DNA from: Zunongwangia pacifica
GTDB lineage: Bacteria; Bacteroidota; Bacteroidia; Flavobacteriales; Flavobacteriaceae
Length of the DNA: 64,000 bases
Assembly (NCBI RefSeq): GCF_023499215.1
Contig: NZ_JAKHSK010000001.1
Location: 124,001-188,000 of the forward strand
Direction of reading: 5' to 3'
Shown: positions 7,413 through 18,219 of the stretch, one piece after another
Position numbering within the stretch: position 1 is the stretch's first letter
Layout of the letters: each line of letters opens with the position of its first letter
Made by a program: the position numbers and the translations under genes
Notes under the pieces: generated by a model
The model's input: the letters and a program-made list of their open reading frames with translations, nothing else
What the model was told of the DNA's origin: nothing
Databases searched by the model: none

Positions 7413-8441
7413 ATGGTTATGAATGAAAACCTGGATGCCACTGGTGAAAATTTTTCTTCGGAAGAATTTGATATTGAAAGAGCTTTAAGGCCACTTAGTT
7501 TTGATGACTTTGCCGGGCAGGAACAGGTATTGGATAACCTAAAGGTTTTTGTTGCGGCGGCTAATCTAAGAAGTGATGCTTTAGATCATACCCTTTTGCA
7601 TGGCCCTCCTGGATTGGGAAAAACCACTTTAGCACATATTTTAGCCAACGAACTTGGTGTGGGGTTAAAAGTTACCTCAGGACCGGTTCTGGATAAGCCA
7701 GGAGATTTGGCCGGACTTTTAACGAATCTTGATGAACGTGATATTCTTTTTATAGATGAGATCCATCGTTTAAGCCCTATTGTAGAAGAATATTTATATT
7801 CGGCAATGGAAGATTACCGTATCGATATCATGATCGAATCTGGTCCTAATGCGCGCAGTGTACAGCTTAATTTGAGTCCGTTTACGCTCATCGGTGCAAC
7901 CACCAGATCAGGATTGCTTACGGCTCCCATGAGGGCACGTTTTGGTATTTCCAGTCGATTACAGTATTATTCCACCGAGTTACTTTCTGATATTGTACAA
8001 CGTAGCGCACAAATTTTAAATGTTCCCATAAGTCTGGAAGCCGCTATAGAAATTGCAGGACGTAGTCGCGGTACGCCACGTATTGCCAATGCGCTTTTAA
8101 GAAGGGTGCGAGATTTTGCCCAAATTAAAGGAGATGGTAAAATAGATATCAATATCGCCAGATATGGTCTTAAGGCGTTGAACGTTGATGCCCATGGTCT
8201 GGATGAAATGGATAATAGGATCTTAGAGACCATTATCGATAAATTTAAAGGTGGTCCTGTAGGGATTACTACGCTCGCTACCGCAGTTAGTGAGAGTGCA
8301 GAAACTATCGAGGAGGTGTATGAACCCTTTTTAATACAGCAGGGATTTATTTATCGCACGCCAAGAGGAAGAGAGGTGACCGAGGCTGCTTATAAACATT
8401 TAGGAAAATCTCGAGGCCCTAGCCAGGGAGGCTTGTTCTAG
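7413..8441 (+). CDS. ruvB: Holliday junction branch migration ATPase RuvB
   Basis: The 342-residue AAA+ motor has Walker [10 protein letters not shown] at residues 64-72, a DEIHRL Walker B, the sensor segment GATTRSG, and a C-terminal winged-helix domain ending in the usual [14 protein letters not shown]. RuvB drives branch migration on RuvA-bound Holliday junctions. Its partner ruvA lies 10 kb away at 18.3 kb, not next to it, which is common in this phylum. A second ATG two codons downstream is an equally possible start. The length is normal. Confidence 0.97.
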
Positions 8442-8482: not shown

Positions 8483-9805
8483 ATGAAGAAAGAAATTCCA
8501 CAGGTTTCTACCTTAACGTTTTTTAAAAATGCAGCCGGTATTGTTAAAAATCCGCTGCCATTTCATCATGAGAATTTTCAAAAGCATGGTGATATTTTTA
8601 GACTAAATATCGGCCCTAAAAAATCGGTTGTTTTTTGCAGGGATGCCGATTTCGCTCAATACGTACTTCAGAAAAATCAGAAGAACTATATCAAATCTGA
8701 AATTCAGACCAAAGACTTAGTGAAATATGTGGGGAACGGTTTGTTAACCTCTAACGGAGAATACTGGCAGAAGCAGCGTAAACTTATCCAGCCTGCATTT
8801 CATAAAAAACATGTTGCTAATTTACTAGATACGGTTTTAGAAGCTATTCGGGTGGAATATGTAAAGATTCGGCCAGCAAAGACAATAGATGTTTTTCCGA
8901 TTTTTAATGATTTGGCTTTTCAAACTGTGGTGAAGTCACTTTTTAGTAGTGCTGCAAGCCAGGAAGAGATCAACAGGCTTCAATTTGTGACCGAGGAAAA
9001 TCAGAAAATGCTGGTCAAAGAATTGCGGCAACCTTATAAAAGATTTTGGTTTCATGTAAGCGGAAAACTAAAATATCATCTTAAACTTAGCGAGGAAGCC
9101 AGACAAATTTTAAGGAATATCGTCCAAAAACGAAAGCAAAATCCTAAACGCTACGATGATCTTTTGGATATGCTGCTGGATGCTCGATATGAAGATGGGC
9201 AGCCTATGAATGAAGAGCAGTTAATCGATGAAATTCTTATACTTTTTGTGGCAGGGCACGAAACTACTTCAAATTCACTGAGTTTTACCACGCAACTTTT
9301 AGCGCAAAATCCACAAATACAGGACAAAATTTTTGCTGAAGTAAAAGCCGCTTCAGCAGGAACAACTAGTTTAATGGAATTTCTTCAGCAATGTCCCTAC
9401 ACACAAAATGTGATTTTAGAGAGTATGCGATTATATCCGCCGGCCTATTTTATGGATCGTGTGAATTTAGAGGAAGATGAATTTAATGGGTTCAAATTCG
9501 ATAAAAATTCAGATCTTTTATTTTCATTTTATGAAATTCATCGTAGTGAAAAACATTGGGAGCGTCCGTTAGAATTTAATCCAGATCGTTTTGCTACAGA
9601 GAAGAATCCGGCAGCCTATTTTCCTTTTGGTGCCGGCCCCAGGAAATGTATTGGAAGTAATTTTGCGATGTACGAGATGATTTTAGCCGTTTCAGAATTA
9701 ATTCTGAGCTATAAAATTTTACCGGTAAAAGAAGATATTGAGATTTTACCGCTTATCACCCTAAAGCCTAAAAATGCTTTTGTAGAATTTCAGAAAAGAG
9801 CTTGA
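8483..9805 (+). CDS. Cytochrome P450
   Basis: The 440-residue protein has all the P450 hallmarks: oxygen-activation motif AGHETTS in helix I near residue 260, the ExxR motif ESMR, and the haem-ligand loop [12 protein letters not shown] with Cys389 as thiolate ligand. No signal peptide, membrane anchor or fused reductase is visible, so it is probably a soluble enzyme needing ferredoxin or another donor. The substrate cannot be read from the sequence; fatty acids or isoprenoids are common for bacterial members. The stop codon shares one base with the queG start (TGATG), so the two are probably translationally coupled. Confidence 0.93.
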
Positions 9806-10731
9806 TGTTTATAGACAACAAAGCGAAATATACCAATCTTATCAAAGAAGAGGCAAAGCGGCTGGGCTTTATGTCTTGCGGAATTAGTAAAGCTGAGTTT
9901 TTAGAAGAGGAAGCGCCAAGATTGGAGGAATGGCTTAATAAAAATCGAAATGGTAAGATGTATTATATGGAAAATCATTTTGATAAGCGCCTGGATCCTA
10001 CAAAACTGGTGGATGGTGCTAAAAGCGTGATCTCTTTATTGTTGAATTATTATCCCAGCGAATTTCAGAACCCAGAATCCTATAAAATCAGTAAATACGC
10101 TTATGGAAAAGATTATCACTTTGTGATCAAAGACAAATTGAAATCTTTGCTTCAATTTATCCAAAATGAGATTGGAGAAGTAGACGGCCGAGCTTTTGTA
10201 GATTCGGCACCGGTTTTAGATAAAGCCTGGGCGGCAAAAAGCGGTTTAGGATGGATTGGTAAGAACTCGAATTTACTATCTAAAAAAGCAGGTTCTTTTT
10301 TCTTTATAGCAGAATTAATAGTGGATCTAGATTTAGACTATGACACCCCGGTTACCGATCATTGTGGTACTTGTACTGCTTGTATAGATGCCTGTCCCAC
10401 CAATGCGATTGTAGAGCCCTATAAAGTTGATGGTAGTAAATGTATCTCGTATTTTACGATAGAGCTACAAGACGAATTACCTAACAGTTTTAAAAATACT
10501 TTCGAGGATTGGATGTTTGGCTGTGATATTTGCCAGGATGTATGCCCGTGGAATCGATTTTCGAAATCGCATAGCGAACCACTTTTTAATCCACATCCAG
10601 ATTTGTTGAAGTTCGATAAAAAAGACTGGGAAGAAATTACCAAGGAAACGTTTAATGAAATCTTTCGAAAATCGGCCGTAAAAAGAACCAAATTCGAAGG
10701 TTTAAAGCGTAATATTAAAGCTATTTCATAA
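9805..10731 (+). CDS. queG: Epoxyqueuosine reductase QueG
   Basis: QueG performs the last step of queuosine synthesis in tRNA, reducing epoxyqueuosine with cobalamin and two [4Fe-4S] clusters. The 308-residue protein shows the first cluster in [16 protein letters not shown] and the second in [11 protein letters not shown], plus the conserved [21 protein letters not shown] segment containing the catalytic Asp. The start chosen is ATG 9805, which overlaps the P450 stop by one base; a TTG one codon earlier is less likely. A convergent hairpin terminator follows. A degraded copy of the last 100 codons lies at 15.55-15.78 kb. Confidence 0.95.
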
Positions 10732-10736
10732 AAGAT

Positions 10737-10776
10737 AAACAGCACTTTGATCCCTTTTAGGATGAAAGTGCTGTTT
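10737..10776. terminator. Bidirectional terminator between queG and the DUF5777 gene
   Basis: A twelve-pair perfect stem links AAACAGCACTTT (10737-10748) and AAAGTGCTGTTT (10765-10776). The loop can pair further (ATCC with GGAT). A and T ends on both sides suit two convergent operons. Confidence 0.75.
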
Positions 10777-10795
10777 GAGATGGAAGGTCCTATTT

Positions 10796-11674
10796 TTAGT
10801 TTTTATGGCTTACCTGAAAAGCTCTTGAAATATTGAAGCCTAAATGAATATCGCCTTTAAAGAAACTATCGGTAGTTTCAGTAATAAAAGAATTTTCAAC
10901 CATAGTAATGGCATTCGAGAGCATGATCTGGAAAACATGTCCGCCGGTTTCGATGTCTACACTTACCGCAAAAGAATTTTTAGTATCGATAGATTTTAAC
11001 GGGTTTATGGTATAAAAATATTCTGCATTAAACGATACACGCTTGCTTAATTTCATACGGGCGCCTGTTCCTATTGCAAAAATATCATGTGGATCCTGAT
11101 TTTTCTGAACGCTGTTTTTATGAATATAGGTTGGCGTAAGTTGCAGCGAAAATTTATCGCTAAACTTTCTGGCAATTAATAGCTGTGAGGTGTAATAAAG
11201 CCGATCGCTAAAATCGGGTTTTTCATCGGGCGCATAATTCTTTATGGTTTTTCGGATAATGCTTCCAAAAACCGAAATGCTTACCGGGGTAGGCTTTACG
11301 CCGGTAGTTTGTTTTAATAATCGATATTTGGCAAAACCATCTAAGGTTTTTTCAAAAGAACTTCTACCCAAACCTAAGGTTAAATCGTCGGTAAGAGCGT
11401 ATTCTAACGCAAATCTAATGTTAGATTCATCCAGTCCAAATAGCTGGTCTATGCCATCATTAGTACGCCCAAATCGGTGTGAGATTAAGAATTCTAGAAC
11501 TCCTTGTTTTCGATTTTCTATAGAATGGCCATTAATTATTCGGGTGCCTTTAAATGTCGCACTAACCGGTGTGGTTTCTACAGGAGTTTCATCTTCTAGT
11601 ATCGACATCTGGTTTTGAGCAGATGCCGTTACTGAAAAAATTAAGAAAGGAAGAATGTAAAGTATTTTCTTCAT
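10796..11674 (-). CDS. DUF5777-like outer-membrane beta-barrel protein
   Basis: The 292-residue protein starts with a Sec signal peptide (cleavage near residue 19, SASA-Q) and then shows alternating amphipathic strands typical of a small outer-membrane barrel. The segment GVLEFLISHRFGRTNDG near residue 60 is characteristic of DUF5777 proteins of Bacteroidota. The function of the family is not known. It is the last gene of a minus-strand operon and starts 14 bases after the YceI stop. A role as the outer-membrane partner of the periplasmic YceI, OB-fold and cytochrome proteins is inference from position only. Confidence 0.75.
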   Translation of the reverse strand: MKKILYILPFLIFSVTASAQNQMSILEDETPVETTPVSATFKGTRIINGHSIENRKQGVLEFLISHRFGRTNDGIDQLFGLDESNIRFALEYALTDDLTLGLGRSSFEKTLDGFAKYRLLKQTTGVKPTPVSISVFGSIIRKTIKNYAPDEKPDFSDRLYYTSQLLIARKFSDKFSLQLTPTYIHKNSVQKNQDPHDIFAIGTGARMKLSKRVSFNAEYFYTINPLKSIDTKNSFAVSVDIETGGHVFQIMLSNAITMVENSFITETTDSFFKGDIHLGFNISRAFQVSHKN

Positions 11675-11688
11675 GATTATAGGTACGT

Positions 11689-12246
11689 TTAATTATAAGG
11701 CTGATGAATGAACTGAAAAGAAGTTTCAACTTCATCTGAAATATTATTTCGAACCACGTTAGGGATTTTTATATCGTAGTCTTTAATATTGATCATGAAT
11801 TTGCCTTTTAAACTGACTTCTTTTTCGCTTTTATTAAAAATGCTTTCTATGGTTATGGTTTTTTTTACCCCGTGAATTGTTATGTTTCCGGTTATTTTTG
11901 CAAGACTTTCTTCTCCTGAAAGAAGTTCTTTTAAGTTTTTAATAGTGCCTGAGAATTTGGCTTTTGGGTATTTGTCTGATTCTACATAATTTTCATTGAA
12001 ATGTTCTTGCATTAGCGCTTTTTCAAAAACAAAAGATTTCATAAGAACATTAATAGCTATTTCTCCAGATTCTAAATCTACAATACTTAAAACCTGATTG
12101 TTTTCTGCTTTAATATCTTCGACAAACGTGTGGGAGTAAAAGGATACTTTACCATTTTTGGTGAGAAACTTTTGTCCGAAAAATGAAGTACTATTCAGTA
12201 AGCAAAAGAAGAGTAGTAATGTGAATGCTGTTGTTTTATTTTTCAT
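11689..12246 (-). CDS. YceI-like periplasmic lipocalin-fold protein
   Basis: The 185-residue protein has a signal peptide of about 24 residues followed by a YceI domain, with the pattern HFNENYVESDKYPKAKFSG and the later GNITIHGVKKTITI. YceI proteins have a lipocalin-like barrel that binds isoprenoid quinones or other amphiphiles in the periplasm. The start overlaps the end of the OB-fold gene by 11 bases, so the two are coupled. The family is clear; the ligand here is unknown, but a haem c protein in the same operon is consistent with a quinone or redox role. Confidence 0.88.
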   Translation of the reverse strand: MKNKTTAFTLLLFFCLLNSTSFFGQKFLTKNGKVSFYSHTFVEDIKAENNQVLSIVDLESGEIAINVLMKSFVFEKALMQEHFNENYVESDKYPKAKFSGTIKNLKELLSGEESLAKITGNITIHGVKKTITIESIFNKSEKEVSLKGKFMINIKDYDIKIPNVVRNNISDEVETSFQFIHQPYN

Positions 12247-12688
12247 AATTTGAGGGTATAATAGAGGCGTCTATTAGCACTACGTCTAATAAAAAGCCAG
12301 TGCAAATTCCTTTAATTTGAATTTTATCGCCTATTTTTAGTTGAAGGCTTGCTTTATTACTGCTGGGGTTTAAATTACAGGTCACGCTGGTGGAAGCGTC
12401 TGGATATCCAACCGATAATACTCGTACGCCATTAGAAGAATCTATTTTTTGTAAAATTCCTTCTACCGCTATTAGTTGATCTAAATACCGCTTATTGGCT
12501 TGTTCTTCATTTGTGGAGAAATCATCTATCAATTGCTGGGCACTTATAGAAATAGATGGTTTTTCGAGTATTACATTTCTATGTGGTTTGTTAAACATCC
12601 AGATACTTATGGTTGCTGCTAAAAGCAATAAAATGCCTAGGGCAATTGCGATAGAATACCCTATTTTTTTTCTTTTTTTCAGACTCAT
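12236..12688 (-). CDS. Membrane-anchored OB-fold (tRNA_anti-like) protein
   Basis: The 150-residue protein has a basic N-terminus, one transmembrane helix at about residues 10-32 and a periplasmic OB-fold with the pattern KRYLDQLIAVEGILQKID and later KIGDKIQIKGICTGFLLDVVL. This matches the tRNA_anti-like family of small OB proteins in Bacteroidota. Despite the family name it is probably not a nucleic-acid binder here, because the domain faces the periplasm. It starts four bases after the stop of the broken cytochrome gene and overlaps the YceI gene by 11 bases. The function is unknown. Confidence 0.75.
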   Translation of the reverse strand: MSLKKRKKIGYSIAIALGILLLLAATISIWMFNKPHRNVILEKPSISISAQQLIDDFSTNEEQANKRYLDQLIAVEGILQKIDSSNGVRVLSVGYPDASTSVTCNLNPSSNKASLQLKIGDKIQIKGICTGFLLDVVLIDASIIPSNYEK

Positions 12689-12691
12689 GCT

Positions 12692-13061
12692 TTAGTTTAT
12701 TTTAGCACCACTGTCTACCCAGCAGGAAATAGCTTTAATTTGTTGGTCGGTAAGACTTCCGTTTAGCGGCATGGTTCTGTTTTGGGTTACTGCTTTTATA
12801 GCTTTGGCATTGTTTTGTAATACCGTTGAATTTTCAAAATTTAGCGGGTGTACCGTTCCGTTATGGCATTGTATACAAGAGCTGGTAAAAATAGGCTGTA
12901 TCTGTTCTTGAAAAGAGATCCCCGGATTACAATCCGGAGAATCTATAATTGTGGTATCATCATCAATGACGTTGCTTTCACAAGCACTTAGAAAAAAACA
13001 AAACCGATAAGAAACTTAGATAAGCAATTTCTTTACAATCTATTTTGCTAGATAATTTCAT
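12692..13061 (-). pseudogene. Haem c lipoprotein gene with a one-base frameshift in its signal peptide
   Basis: Reading the minus strand from ATG 13061 gives MKLSSKIDCKEIAYLSFLSVLF and then a shift at a run of seven T (plus-strand A-run 12992-12998). Removing one T restores a lipobox (FFLSAC), an acidic linker and a mono-haem cytochrome domain with CIQCH at bases 12863-12877, ending KAISCWVDSGAKIN at 12692. The repaired protein would be about 122 residues. No start codon exists in the downstream frame between the preceding in-frame stop and the lipobox, so the domain cannot be made as drawn. It lies four bases before the OB-fold gene in a tight operon. It may be a true null allele, a phase-variable tract or a sequencing error. 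Confidence 0.8.
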
Positions 13062-13095
13062 GGTAGATTTATTTAATGTGAAATAAAACAGTTAT

Positions 13096-13956
13096 CTATT
13101 CTTCAGGAGCTTCGATGCTGTTATGGTTTACAATAGGCCATATGCCTGGAAGCGGAACACTAACACCTTTATTATCTCCTTTTGCTGAATCTCCCCCGAA
13201 GTAGTATAAAGGCCAGCCTTTATAAGTAAGTTGTTCACGTTTATTGTGTACCGATATGGTGTTGAAATCTGAAAGCTTTAAAATACTAGGGAGGTTTTCT
13301 AGGCTTATAGTAAATATGGGCCAGGCAGCATCGTTAGAGAAATCCTCAGATGTGTAATTGTTGGTGTCTTTTTTGTCTGGAGAAAAAGCATAAAGCGTAT
13401 TTCCTGCATTATCGGTAAGGTATTTTGTGAGTCCCTCTCCTTCTATATATTCATTATCACTGTTAATAATGTAGTTTTTGCCATCTGCTCCTACCAATTG
13501 GGCATTCACAAACATTAGCGAGTAATCTGGTTTTGCTACATACCAAACTTCCCCTATACGATCACCATTTATATCACCAGCTTGGACGTCATTGGCATAA
13601 TAATATAAAGGCCATCCTTTATAAGTAGTTTGTTTTTTGCCGTCGGGACGGGTAATAGTTGCAAAATCATTGGTGTCTAAATCGTCATCGGTTTTTATCG
13701 TTTCTTGATAAAAAACAGGCCATGCAGATAAACAACTCTCGGTGCAAGTAGAATTGTCTTTAGAGTCATTCGAAAAGAAATATAGAGTCCTTCTTGATCC
13801 ATCGGTTAAGATATTTCCGAATTTGCTATTGTTGGTCAAACTAACAGTTGCTGAATTTTCCTGTGGATCTGTAATAGTTTGAGGAGCGTCATCATCGCTA
13901 CTGCAAGATTGGATGAATAAAGCAGCGAAAGTCAAAATAAAAATCAATTTTTTCAT
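13096..13956 (-). CDS. COG4315 repeat lipoprotein (secreted repeat of unknown function)
   Basis: The 286-residue protein has a lipoprotein signal with lipobox IQSC (Cys18), then an Asp/Ser-rich linker and two tandem copies of the COG4315/Lipoprotein_15 unit. The repeated features are LYFFSNDSKD and LYAFSPDKKD early in each copy, and YKGWPLYYYANDVQAGD and YKGWPLYYFGGDSAKGD late in each copy, which are the known YxxxxD-type motifs. Each copy also has a conserved AWPxF. Family members are secreted or lipid-anchored and their function is unresolved. The gene heads the minus-strand cluster with the cytochrome, OB-fold, YceI and DUF5777 genes 34 bases downstream. Confidence 0.85.
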   Translation of the reverse strand: MKKLIFILTFAALFIQSCSSDDDAPQTITDPQENSATVSLTNNSKFGNILTDGSRRTLYFFSNDSKDNSTCTESCLSAWPVFYQETIKTDDDLDTNDFATITRPDGKKQTTYKGWPLYYYANDVQAGDINGDRIGEVWYVAKPDYSLMFVNAQLVGADGKNYIINSDNEYIEGEGLTKYLTDNAGNTLYAFSPDKKDTNNYTSEDFSNDAAWPIFTISLENLPSILKLSDFNTISVHNKREQLTYKGWPLYYFGGDSAKGDNKGVSVPLPGIWPIVNHNSIEAPEE

Positions 13957-14235
13957 TGTTTACAATTTTTTAGTAATGAGCCACAAATAAAATTTAGGAT
14001 TCTGTTTTTTAGACTATTAAAGTTTATGAATAGGAAGAAATAAGCGTTGAAAGGGAATTTTTTGGTCTGAATAAAATGGGATAATTCGTGAGAGTGGAGT
14101 GTTTTTAAAAAAACGGGATTGGTTTTTTTCGATTTTGGAATTTGCTGATTCCTGAAGTTCCAAAAAAAAGCCTCACAATTAGAGTAAAAATTGAGAGGTG
14201 TTTTTGAGGGCAGTTATTTAATAATAACAAGGTTT
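13957..14235. other. Intergenic region upstream of the COG4315 operon
   Basis: These 279 bases hold the presumed promoter of the COG4315 operon at the low-coordinate end and the terminator of the LytTR gene at the high end. No open frame of note or RNA gene was seen. The DNA has several homopolymer tracts of six to eight A or T. Confidence 0.6.
14162..14199 (-). terminator. Terminator of the Cache-LytTR gene
   Basis: On the minus strand a stem with one internal mismatch pairs the bases at 14189-14199 with those at 14170-14180, followed by eight T (A-run at 14162-14169). It lies about 35 bases past the stop. Confidence 0.65.
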
Positions 14236-15369
14236 TTAGTCTATGGGTTCTCCTCTAAGCCATTTTTTAAAAAGGGAAGCTTTATGTTTGCTAATGAGTA
14301 TGTCTACAGGAGATTTGGGGCACATCTCGATTTTTAGTTGATTGTTCCCGTATTTATATATTTTATCAATCGCGTTGATATTCAATATAAATCTTCGGTT
14401 TGCTCTGAAGAAGTGCTGACTACTTAAATCGGAACAGATTTCTTCTAAACTATTGTTGCTGTTAAATACTTTGCCATTGGTGCAGCAAATGTAAGTAACC
14501 GTATTTTCCATATAGATAAAAGCAATTTCTTTAGGATCGATAGAAACAATTTGGTCTTTTATGTAGGTTAGAATTCGTTTTCTACAGCTGGATTTACTGT
14601 CTTCATTCTCTTTCTTTATTTCCTTTTGTTTTTGCTGCTGCAAGACCAAATTTTGATTAAGTTCTGATAAGCTTAAAAGTTTTTTGGATAGACCTTTGTT
14701 CTCTTTCTCAATTTCTTTCTCGTAACTTCCATTAATTAGGCGTACCGTAAAGAGCGATATAATTACAATGAGAATGCCTGAAATACTACAAATTATGGTG
14801 AAGTTTAGCTTTAAATTACCGATTTGTGTTTTTAATTTGTCGAGATTGGCATGAGCAGCAATAATCCAATCGGTATCTTTAATGGGGTATAGATAAATAA
14901 TTTCAGAATAATCATTGTCTAGCACCGTTTGTTCTTTGGTGAGAATGCTGTAAAGCTCATAAATTTTAGGTTCTTTGTCTATGGGCTGAATTAGCGATTT
15001 TTCGGTATAAATTTTTTCTCCAATTTTGTGAGGATTAGGATGACAAACTTCTATGCCAGACCAATCAATCATGCAAATGTAACCAGACTGTGAATTGCTA
15101 CGCTCTATGGTTTTTTGTAGGTTTTGAATTACGATATCATGCTCAATACCATTCTCTAATTGAAATTTTATTAGAGAAGATATTTCCTGAGCTTCTCTTT
15201 TACTTGCCTCAACTTGATTTTTCAAAAAGTTTTCAGAGGTGTATTCGATTAAATAATAAATGCTGAAATAACTCATAACAAAAGTTATGGTCGTTAAGCT
15301 CAAGAAAGTGAAAATGTAGGCTTTGTCTTTCTTCATTAGTGATTTCGAAGTTAGTTTTAAAGGTTTCAA
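14236..15369 (-). CDS. Membrane sensor with Cache-like domain and LytTR DNA-binding output
   Basis: The 377-residue protein has a transmembrane helix at about residues 18-41 and a second at 190-212. They bracket a periplasmic domain of about 150 residues that looks like a Cache sensor (SGYICMIDWSGIEVCHPNPHKIGE). A coiled-coil stretch (about 218-258) leads to a C-terminal LytTR domain (about 265-372) with FRANRRFILNINAIDKIYKYGNNQLKIE. It is therefore a one-component transmembrane transcription regulator with no kinase or receiver domain. It is upstream of, and in the same direction as, the COG4315-cytochrome-YceI cluster, which is its most obvious target, though that is inference. The ligand is unknown. 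Confidence 0.85.
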   Translation of the reverse strand: MKPLKLTSKSLMKKDKAYIFTFLSLTTITFVMSYFSIYYLIEYTSENFLKNQVEASKREAQEISSLIKFQLENGIEHDIVIQNLQKTIERSNSQSGYICMIDWSGIEVCHPNPHKIGEKIYTEKSLIQPIDKEPKIYELYSILTKEQTVLDNDYSEIIYLYPIKDTDWIIAAHANLDKLKTQIGNLKLNFTIICSISGILIVIISLFTVRLINGSYEKEIEKENKGLSKKLLSLSELNQNLVLQQQKQKEIKKENEDSKSSCRKRILTYIKDQIVSIDPKEIAFIYMENTVTYICCTNGKVFNSNNSLEEICSDLSSQHFFRANRRFILNINAIDKIYKYGNNQLKIEMCPKSPVDILISKHKASLFKKWLRGEPID

Positions 15370-15550
15370 ACTTAAAGAAGCAGCATATTAGTATTCTGAT
15401 TCAGAAATATTAATAATAGATGATATTATAAGTTTATTTTATTCCTAAATGCTTAGATAATAAGGATATTTATTATGAGTTTGTTAATATAAAGCGGGTG
15501 ATGCTTTGTTAACTTCAACTAGGGAATAATGGCTGAGATAGCGGGATTTT

Positions 15551-15778
15551 ATGAAACCTCACAAAGTTGATGGCTGTAAATACATCTCATATTTTACTGG
15601 ATTTTCGAAATCGTATAGCGAGCCACTTTTTGATCGGTATTCAGATTTGTTGAAATTCAATAAAAAGGACTGGGAAGAAATTCTCAGGAAACTTTTAATA
15701 AGATCTTCCTAAAATTTGCCGTAAAAAGAACTAAATTCGAAGGTTTAAAGCGTAATGTTGAGTTTTTGGATTCATAAA
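15551..15778 (+). pseudogene. Degenerate duplicate of the queG 3' end
   Basis: These bases align with queG 10419-10735 in two blocks. The first carries KVDGxKxISYFT and the second FSKSxSEPLF...DLLKFxKKDWEEI and then the [11 protein letters not shown] end in another frame. Identity is high, roughly 85 percent by eye. Thirty-two codons of queG (about 10459-10554), including the CDICQDVC cluster ligands, are missing as an in-frame deletion. A later one-base loss shifts the frame and gives a stop. An ATG at 15551 opens a 48-codon frame through the remnant, but its product would have no cluster ligands and is unlikely to be functional. Confidence 0.85.
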
Positions 15779-15898
15779 GTGATCATCTTCAAGTTATGAT
15801 CTTAAAAATCATAGCCTTAAAAATCAAATTTGATTAAAACAGGTTAAAATCTTACCACTATTTTAAAATATTTAGGTAGTTAATGTAATCTACCTTGC

Positions 15899-15906
15899 TA
15901 ACTTTG
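15899..15906 (+). promoter_or_regulatory. Predicted -7 box of maeB
   Basis: TAACTTTG matches the Bacteroidota TAnnTTTG box and ends 21 bases before the maeB ATG. The -33 element is weak. Confidence 0.5.
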
Positions 15907-15927
15907 TAATAGCTAAAACCAATAGTT

Positions 15928-18219
15928 ATGAGCAACAATTCAAGAAAAAGACGGGAAGCTTTGGTGTACCACGCTAAGCCCAAGCCCGGTAAAATCCAGA
16001 TCGTCCCTACCAAAAAATACGCTTCGCAACGTGACCTTTCTTTAGCGTATTCACCTGGGGTGGCAGAGCCATGTTTAGAGATTGAAAAAGATAAAGAAAA
16101 TGCCTATAAATATACTACCAAAGGAAATTTAGTTGCCGTAATTAGTAATGGTACGGCTGTTTTAGGACTAGGTGATATAGGTCCAGAAGCTTCTAAACCT
16201 GTAATGGAAGGAAAAGGATTGCTTTTTAAAATCTTTGCAGATATTGATGTTTTTGATATTGAAGTAGATACTAAAAATGTAGATGCTTTTATCGAAACTG
16301 TAAAAAATATAGCGCCAACTTTTGGAGGGATTAATCTTGAAGATATTAAAGCTCCCGAAGCTTTTGAAATTGAAAGAAGATTAAAAGAAGAACTGGACAT
16401 TCCAGTAATGCACGACGATCAGCACGGTACGGCAATTATTTCTGCAGCAGCACTTTTAAACGCAGTAGAACTTGCTAAAAAGAAAATGAGCAAGATAAAG
16501 ATTGTAGTGAGTGGTGCCGGTGCCGCGGCGGTTTCCTGTACTAAACTATACAAAGCTTTTGGCGCAAAGGCTGAAAATATTGTGATGCTTGATAGTAAAG
16601 GAGTGATACGAAAAGACCGTCCTAATCTATCTGAAGAGAAATTAGAATTTGCAACCGATAGGGATTTAAATACTCTAGAGGATGCTATGAAAGATGCCGA
16701 TGTTTTTATTGGTCTTTCTATCGCAAATATCGTTTCTCCCGATATGCTTAAGAGCATGGCAAAACGGCCAATCGTTTTTGCTATGGCGAATCCAAATCCA
16801 GAGATCGATTACCAACTCGCTATGGATACCCGTAAAGATGTTATTATGGCTACAGGACGTAGCGATCATCCTAACCAGGTGAATAACGTGCTGGGATTCC
16901 CGTTTATCTTCCGTGGCGCTTTAGATGTTAGAGCGACAAAGATCAACGAAGAGATGAAGATGGCAGCGGTTAAGGCTTTAGCTGAACTGGCCAAAGAACC
17001 AGTGCCAGAACAAGTGAATATTGCGTATGGAGAAACCAGACTTAATTTTGGTTCAGAATATATCATCCCCAAGCCATTCGATCCCAGGCTTATTGCTAAA
17101 GTTCCGCCGGCAGTTGCAAAAGCAGCGATGGAAAGTGGTGTTGCCAGAACTGAAATTACCGACTGGCAGAAATACGAAGATGAACTTTTAGAACGAATGG
17201 GCAGTGATAATAAGATCACTCGTTTATTGATGCAGCGCGCTAAAAACAATCCAAAGCGTGTAATTTTTGCTGAAGCAGATCATCTGGATGTATTAAAAGC
17301 AGCACAGATTGTTTACGATGAAGGCATAGGGATTCCTATTCTTCTAGGACGTAGGGAAGTGATTAAAGAATTAATGGCAGAGATCGATTTTGATGCCGAT
17401 GTAGAAATTATCGATCCAAAATCTGATGAAGAACACGATAAACTCAAAAAATACGCTCAAGCTTATTTTGGTTATCGTAGTAGAAAAGGGGTAACCCTTT
17501 ATGACGCGCAGCGATTAATGCGGGAACGTAATTATTTTGCCGCTATGATGGTAAATGAAGGAGATGCCGATGCTTTACTTTCAGGATACTCCCGTGCCTA
17601 CCCAACCGTTGTAAAGCCAATGCTTCAGCTTATCGGTATGGCAAAAGGAGTTTCAAGGGTTGCGGCAGCGAATGTGATGAATACCAATAGAGGACCAATT
17701 TTTATAAGCGATACTTCTATAAATATAGATCCATCAGCTAAAGATTTGGCAAAAATAGCCCAGTTAACTGCCGGTGTGGTCAAACTTTTTGGTTTAGAGC
17801 CGGTAATGGCGATGTTATCTTACGCTAATTTTGGGTCATCTAACCATCCGCAGGCAAGAAAAGTTAAAGATGCTGTTTCTTATCTACATCGTTACCACCC
17901 CGATTTGTTAGTAGATGGTGAATTACAGTCAGATTTTGCTTTAAATAAGGAAATGCTTCAGAATAAATTTCCATTTTCAAAACTGGCAGGAAAAAAGGTA
18001 AATACTTTAATTTATCCAAGCTTAGATTCGGCTAACAGTGCATACAAACTTATAAAAGAGCTTAATGATATCGATTCTATAGGTCCTATTATGATGGGAA
18101 TGAACAAGCCTGTGCATATCCTTCAGTTAGGGGCAAGTGTAGAAGAAATGGTAAATATGGCTGCCGTAGCGGTTGTAGATGCCCAGGAAAAAGAGAAAGC
18201 AAAAAAAGCAAAAAAATAA
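15928..18219 (+). CDS. maeB: NADP-dependent malic enzyme with C-terminal phosphotransacetylase-like domain
   Basis: The 763-residue protein decarboxylates malate to pyruvate with reduction of NADP. The malic enzyme part fills about residues 1-430, with YSPGVAEPC, the HDDQHGTA metal-site motif and the nucleotide-binding VVSGAGAAAVSC. Residues about 430-763 form a phosphotransacetylase-like domain, which in MaeB proteins is usually regulatory (acetyl-CoA sensing) and not catalytic. The length matches the hybrid class. The C-terminus is a Lys/Ala-rich tail. The gene stands alone between a 558-base gap and a terminator and has its own promoter box. Confidence 0.95.
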   Translation: MSNNSRKRREALVYHAKPKPGKIQIVPTKKYASQRDLSLAYSPGVAEPCLEIEKDKENAYKYTTKGNLVAVISNGTAVLGLGDIGPEASKPVMEGKGLLFKIFADIDVFDIEVDTKNVDAFIETVKNIAPTFGGINLEDIKAPEAFEIERRLKEELDIPVMHDDQHGTAIISAAALLNAVELAKKKMSKIKIVVSGAGAAAVSCTKLYKAFGAKAENIVMLDSKGVIRKDRPNLSEEKLEFATDRDLNTLEDAMKDADVFIGLSIANIVSPDMLKSMAKRPIVFAMANPNPEIDYQLAMDTRKDVIMATGRSDHPNQVNNVLGFPFIFRGALDVRATKINEEMKMAAVKALAELAKEPVPEQVNIAYGETRLNFGSEYIIPKPFDPRLIAKVPPAVAKAAMESGVARTEITDWQKYEDELLERMGSDNKITRLLMQRAKNNPKRVIFAEADHLDVLKAAQIVYDEGIGIPILLGRREVIKELMAEIDFDADVEIIDPKSDEEHDKLKKYAQAYFGYRSRKGVTLYDAQRLMRERNYFAAMMVNEGDADALLSGYSRAYPTVVKPMLQLIGMAKGVSRVAAANVMNTNRGPIFISDTSINIDPSAKDLAKIAQLTAGVVKLFGLEPVMAMLSYANFGSSNHPQARKVKDAVSYLHRYHPDLLVDGELQSDFALNKEMLQNKFPFSKLAGKKVNTLIYPSLDSANSAYKLIKELNDIDSIGPIMMGMNKPVHILQLGASVEEMVNMAAVAVVDAQEKEKAKKAKK

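Follow-up and report, generated by a model that had tools for sequence, protein, structure and literature searches.

Why does the genome of Zunongwangia pacifica carry a second piece of queG on the far side of a six-gene cluster? The 64,000-nt stretch of DNA that we analysed (genome G000, contig 12), hereafter the window, holds in order ruvB (7413-8441), a cytochrome P450 gene (CYP; 8483-9805, plus strand; PF00067, E 2.3e-78), queG (9805-10731, plus strand; PF08331 and PF13484), six minus-strand genes (10796-15369), the relic of queG, maeB (15928-18219), and two genes that we take to be ruvA and sprA from their sequence and order rather than from a family search. The P450 gene and the first queG are both intact, the latter with an altered end after about 10717.

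Identity and disablement of the queG relic

At 15556-15774 the queG 3' end is present a second time in decayed form, and we can thus confirm what an initial annotation had proposed for 15551-15778. In blastn comparisons within the window, 15600-15759 aligns with 10556-10716 at 139/161 identical columns with one gap (E 1e-46), and a second alignment pairs 15563-15597 with 10423-10457 (30/35 columns identical, E 2e-5). When edge pieces are included, 178 of 208 aligned columns are identical between the relic and the intact gene, and none of 500 shuffles reaches the relic-queG score. Across the whole genome, the two best non-self matches of the relic are likewise the queG blocks (E 4e-48 and 4e-4), with the next match at E 0.005. 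Specifically, the first block (15556-15597, plus strand) corresponds to about 10416-10457 and the second (15598-15774, plus strand) to 10554-10728, and the queG part of the duplicated stretch amounts to about 315 nt. Beyond the left edge of the relic, queG homology gives no signal (112/500 shuffles reach the score).

The relic has no counterpart of 10458-10553, a gap of 96 nt, i.e. exactly 32 codons, with which the second Cys motif ([11 protein letters not shown]) is lost. Within the second block, which ends in an ancestral-type ...FLDS tail, the frame is broken by a 1-nt gap near 15682. The precise 32-codon deletion of the second iron-sulfur motif and the later frameshift had both been read from the letters beforehand, and both are borne out. 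Significant homology to an intact gene of the same genome (E 1e-46), together with the disabled frame and relaxed selection, marks the relic as a queG pseudogene. A separate observation concerns an AT-rich stretch of 21 nt left of the relic (15400-15420), which has one exact match each in three congeners (G001, G004, and G005), at other places in their genomes.

The native junction in the congeners

Six genomes of the genus were available, including that of Z. pacifica. All five congeners have an intact queG with maeB directly behind it, separated from it by spacers of 153-275 nt, which is the arrangement that had been anticipated for relatives lacking the cluster. The P450 gene, the upstream half of a native CYP-queG pair, is syntenic in all five as well, and the ancestral order that these genomes give is ruvB - P450 - queG - maeB - ruvA. 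Cluster and relic are both absent from the P450-queG-maeB locus in 5/5 congeners, and none of the five has the cluster here without the relic or the relic without the cluster. In each of them, the relic DNA matches the single queG only.

Of the two copies, it is the relic that is connected to the native maeB side and keeps the ancestral right-hand junction. Past its stop, the alignment runs on through the queG-maeB spacer of the congeners to the start of maeB, and 15600-15927 is recovered as one nhmmer match to their queG-maeB junction (E 2.7e-70). The native spacer (15775-15927, plus strand) is colinear with theirs. The intact queG agrees with the congeners to about 10717 and then has another tail (KAIS, stop) followed by other DNA, such that its C-terminus reads ...RNIKAIS as opposed to ...RNI(E/N/K)(F/Y)L... 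in the five congeners. To the right of its stop the native spacer finds no match (333/500 shuffles reach the score). On the other side, ruvB and P450 stand in native order to the left of the intact copy, with a spacer that by eye resembles that of G002.

Given that the native left flank is found at the intact queG and the native spacer at the relic, the old junction has been split, and about 4.8 kb now lies between its halves. The inserted segment (10718-15480; edges approximate) is absent here in 5/5 congeners, all of which present an empty site, and each queG copy keeps a native flank on its outer side, i.e. ruvB-P450 on the left and the queG-maeB spacer on the right. The cluster is thus flanked by the intact and the decayed copy, as the initial annotation had it.

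Descent and decay of the two copies

The relic is closest to the queG of its own genome (178/208), followed by that of G002 (171/208). In a FastTree phylogeny, relic and own queG are sisters with moderate support (0.81) and branches of 0.165 and 0.032, respectively, and five third-position states are common to these two sequences and found in none of the five congeners. Closeness, tree, and shared third-position states together indicate that the relic and the intact queG are probably sisters, and that the copies probably separated within their own lineage after its split from G002, with only one of them staying under selection.

The two copies differ at 28 sites when blocks of at least 8 nt are counted (30 with short edge pieces). 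Among these, 17 changes are specific to the relic and fall 9/4/4 on codon positions 1/2/3 (13 non-synonymous, 4 synonymous), while the 4 changes specific to the intact queG fall 1/0/3. The other 7 differences are all in third positions, with both states occurring among the congeners. The relic-specific changes are as expected without selection and look neutral. A functional short protein starting at 15551 was accordingly rejected, because such changes do not point to a product under constraint, and the 48-codon open frame there looks accidental, as had been suspected, with 13 non-synonymous against 4 synonymous relic-specific changes in the queG frame. At 4 of the 28 differing sites, all of them among these 7, the relic has the state of G002 and the intact queG that of G001 and G004, which hints at some recombination.

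The duplicated stretch probably extends beyond queG. Immediately upstream of the queG relic, about 15482-15558 (plus strand) is probably a remnant of the P450 gene, the gene before queG: 15494-15558 matches CYP 8729-8793 without gaps and in frame, with two stop codons, and the match abuts the edge of the queG relic in the correct order and strand. At the nucleotide level the match is weak (66% over 64 ungapped nt starting at 15496 and 8731, respectively; E 0.005 and 0.004), and an nhmmer model of ruvB-P450-queG-spacer built from the six genomes assigns 15493-15558 to P450 with E 1.3e-4. The score of the match is reached by 7/1000 dinucleotide shuffles; when the real right-hand sequence is kept, 5/3000 shuffles reach it and 0/3000 also stop 5 nt or less from the queG edge. 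When 15470-15790 is searched against the DNA of its own genome, the P450 gene does not appear among the matches at E <= 1. The best match to a protein profile built from 12 P450s falls on model positions 81-99, as expected, with a score (1.1-1.5 bits) that is not significant, being reached by 81/1500 shuffled sets and 66/1500 window control sets. As such, the earlier proposal that a "piece of queG" was duplicated stands for queG itself but probably falls short of the whole, as a part of the upstream P450 gene seems to be included according to the nucleotide tests, although not according to the protein-profile test.

The P450 stretch is 42/65 identical to the P450 gene of its own genome and 39-43/65 to those of the five congeners, and is thus not closest to its own. 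Set against 178/208 for queG, this value means that a single age explains both parts poorly. If the P450 relic is real, the duplicated unit was probably about 2 kb long, of which about 1.6 kb has since been lost by deletion.

The inserted cluster and the origin of the duplication

The cluster is a compact set of envelope genes, and all six lie on the minus strand. Gene A (10796-11674) encodes a DUF5777 beta-barrel protein (PF19089, E 2.5e-98), gene B (11689-12246) a YceI family protein (PF04264, E 4.1e-18), gene C (12236-12688) a tRNA_anti-like protein (PF12869, E 4.5e-24), gene D (12690-13062) a cytochrome c-like lipoprotein (three-frame translation; PF13442 below the curated cut-off), gene E (13096-13956) a Lipoprotein_15 secreted repeat protein (PF03640, E 4.3e-38), and gene F (14236-15369) a LytTR regulator (PF04397, E 3.1e-16; Cache match below cut-off). 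The frame of gene D is apparently broken near its start, where start ATG and lipobox lie in different frames near a T run; the break may be real or stem from a sequencing error. A terminator-like hairpin (10737-10776), an inverted repeat with 17-nt arms that are 94% complementary, is located between queG and gene A.

In the congeners, genes B-E were sought within 18-19.5 kb around queG (gene D with X at stops), where the cluster is absent. A protein 33% identical to that of gene A is encoded elsewhere in the genome of 1/5 congeners (G004), and gene F has no full-length relative in the five, its LytTR domain alone giving matches. Third-position GC content of five cluster genes (0.26-0.34) resembles that of the neighbours (0.30-0.34), so that base composition is uninformative as to a foreign source. 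Among 72,556 plasmid records, 4 carry relatives of gene A, all less than 60% identical and from other genera.

When named genomes were scanned with gene E, 80 loci were kept of at least 105 relatives; among the matches listed, all six gene kinds occur together in 16/80 loci. The nearest clusters among these matches are those of Galbibacter, Sinomicrobium, and Tenacibaculum, with gene E 60-65% identical. Within the fetched flanks of the matches listed, queG is found in 1/80 loci (55% identical, in a Bacteroidales MAG, L129) and maeB in 0/80. Taken together, the recurrence of the six genes and the rarity of queG and maeB beside them point to a module that recurs in other genomes, usually not beside queG. 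In the Bacteroidales MAG (L129:6415-10822), queG and ruvB adjoin genes F and E of the same cluster kind. Genes F and E have the same orientation in Z. pacifica; among the matches listed, F lies within 1.5 kb of E in 19/80 loci, of which 15 are divergent, 3 are head-to-tail as here, and 1 has F after E. Because the three nearest clusters (L068-L070) are divergent, gene F may have been inverted here.

With moderate confidence, we favour the explanation that the inserted 4.8-kb cluster is flanked by a direct duplication, probably of P450-queG, whose maeB-side copy is the relic; as part of the same explanation, and with similar assurance, the relic would have no function of its own. Starting from ruvB - P450 - queG - maeB - ruvA, DNA arriving from this lineage or a very close one would have carried P450/queG sequence next to the cluster, and single-crossover or one-sided recombination, the most likely route, would have left one copy on each side of the insert, giving ruvB - P450 - queG - cluster - (P450 queG) - maeB. 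The ruvB-side copy would then have stayed functional, while the redundant maeB-side copy would have lost selection and shrunk by about 1.6 kb between P450 and queG and by 96 nt in queG, along with point changes. A single crossover with partial homology is proposed because it leaves a direct duplication around the insert with the native flanks outside, and we infer, in line with the joint origin that the initial annotation had suggested, that duplication and insertion were probably one event. Neither a donor molecule nor an intermediate of the insertion was found.

There is a laboratory parallel for such a route. According to a study on E. coli (PMC3240628), partial duplications flank DNA that was integrated at lacZ by a single crossover of circular, partly homologous molecules: PCR on 60 clones yielded the product predicted for a partial target duplication in 56, and sequencing of 14 clones confirmed partial duplications of 109-950 bp. 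Both cases present inserted DNA beside a duplicated part of the same locus. The E. coli case involved laboratory conjugation and a marked plasmid, whereas the copy in Z. pacifica is old, decayed, and maybe about 2 kb long.

The same final order would also arise if a tandem P450-queG duplication came first, the cluster was inserted between the copies later, and the second copy decayed. We consider this possible but rather unlikely, as it needs two independent events at one place, and a tandem duplication that remains uninterrupted is expected to collapse quickly. In its favour, tandem duplications form readily, also by self-transformation, as reported in PMC3784515.

Less probable still, and in our view doubtful, is site-specific integration at an attachment site in the queG 3' end with later loss of the integrase. 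The layout would be that of the e14 element in icd, for which PMC6379469 gives a duplicated region of 163 bp: the gene itself is intact but changed at its end, and a separate 3' piece is displaced beyond the insert. As described there, e14 is a prophage with site-specific integration, whereas no integrase is seen among the six cluster proteins by Pfam, even if one may have been lost. Further points against it are that the window has no tRNA gene, that the probable P450 relic implies a duplication of about 2 kb, long for an attachment site, that the relic DNA matches no plasmid or phage record at E 1e-5, and that the distance from G002 is no greater for the intact queG 3' end than for the flanking genes. 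A similar scar in another genus, described below, would fit such integration.

That one queG copy came from another species, the relic having arrived with the cluster or the intact 3' half being foreign, is highly improbable: the four sites that link the relic with G002 and the intact queG with G001 and G004 speak for it, but the relic is closest to its own queG and its 3' flank is the native spacer, and a foreign 3' half of the intact gene was rejected since its third positions are as close to G002 (0.69 identical over 601-900) as those of the flanking genes ruvB, P450, maeB, and ruvA (0.58-0.81).

One further feature of the altered queG tail is a 14-nt exact match between 10714-10727 and 12726-12739 (gene D antisense), both of which read IKAIS. 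A match of this kind is reached by 8/2000 shuffles and by 6/1846 other 40-mers of the window, and is suggestive only of a template-switch scar.

The final 59 codons of queG also served as query against 397 genomes of the family, a search in which strongly decayed relics would be missed. The queG 3' end has a match in 364/397 genomes and more than one in 4 (G000, G108, G295, and G382). In G108, from another genus, an intact queG is followed by an AAA_14/DUF4143 ATPase gene, a queG 3' relic (113/142 identical), and, further on, maeB (L157:1767-4079). For that genus, 3/4 other genomes gave a queG match, and in 3/3 of these queG is directly followed by maeB; G108 thus appears to hold an independent, similar scar with other cargo. 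The second match in G295, located at the end of a contig and sharing 98.7% identity over 223 nt with the queG of that genome, was taken as an assembly duplicate, and that in G382 (E 0.0045, within a 966-aa open frame) was judged unrelated from its weakness alone. Two cases in 397 genomes do not establish a queG hot spot, and it seems improbable that the queG 3' end is a recurrent landing site in Flavobacteriaceae-type genomes, at which small modules without an integrase would insert and leave a displaced queG tail.

The queG relic is a duplicated pseudogene beside an insertion. It shares neutral-looking substitutions, a frame break, and deletions with ordinary pseudogene relics of segmental duplications, from which it shows no essential difference, and it is informative as a marker of the insertion edge. 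The scar is ordinary and a product of routine genome evolution, but it informs on the rearrangement by giving the insertion a direction, i.e. the place of the old junction, the genes that came in, and a rough timing relative to the split from the nearest congener. The second scar at queG in another genus offers a small lead to repeated entry of gene blocks at this place.
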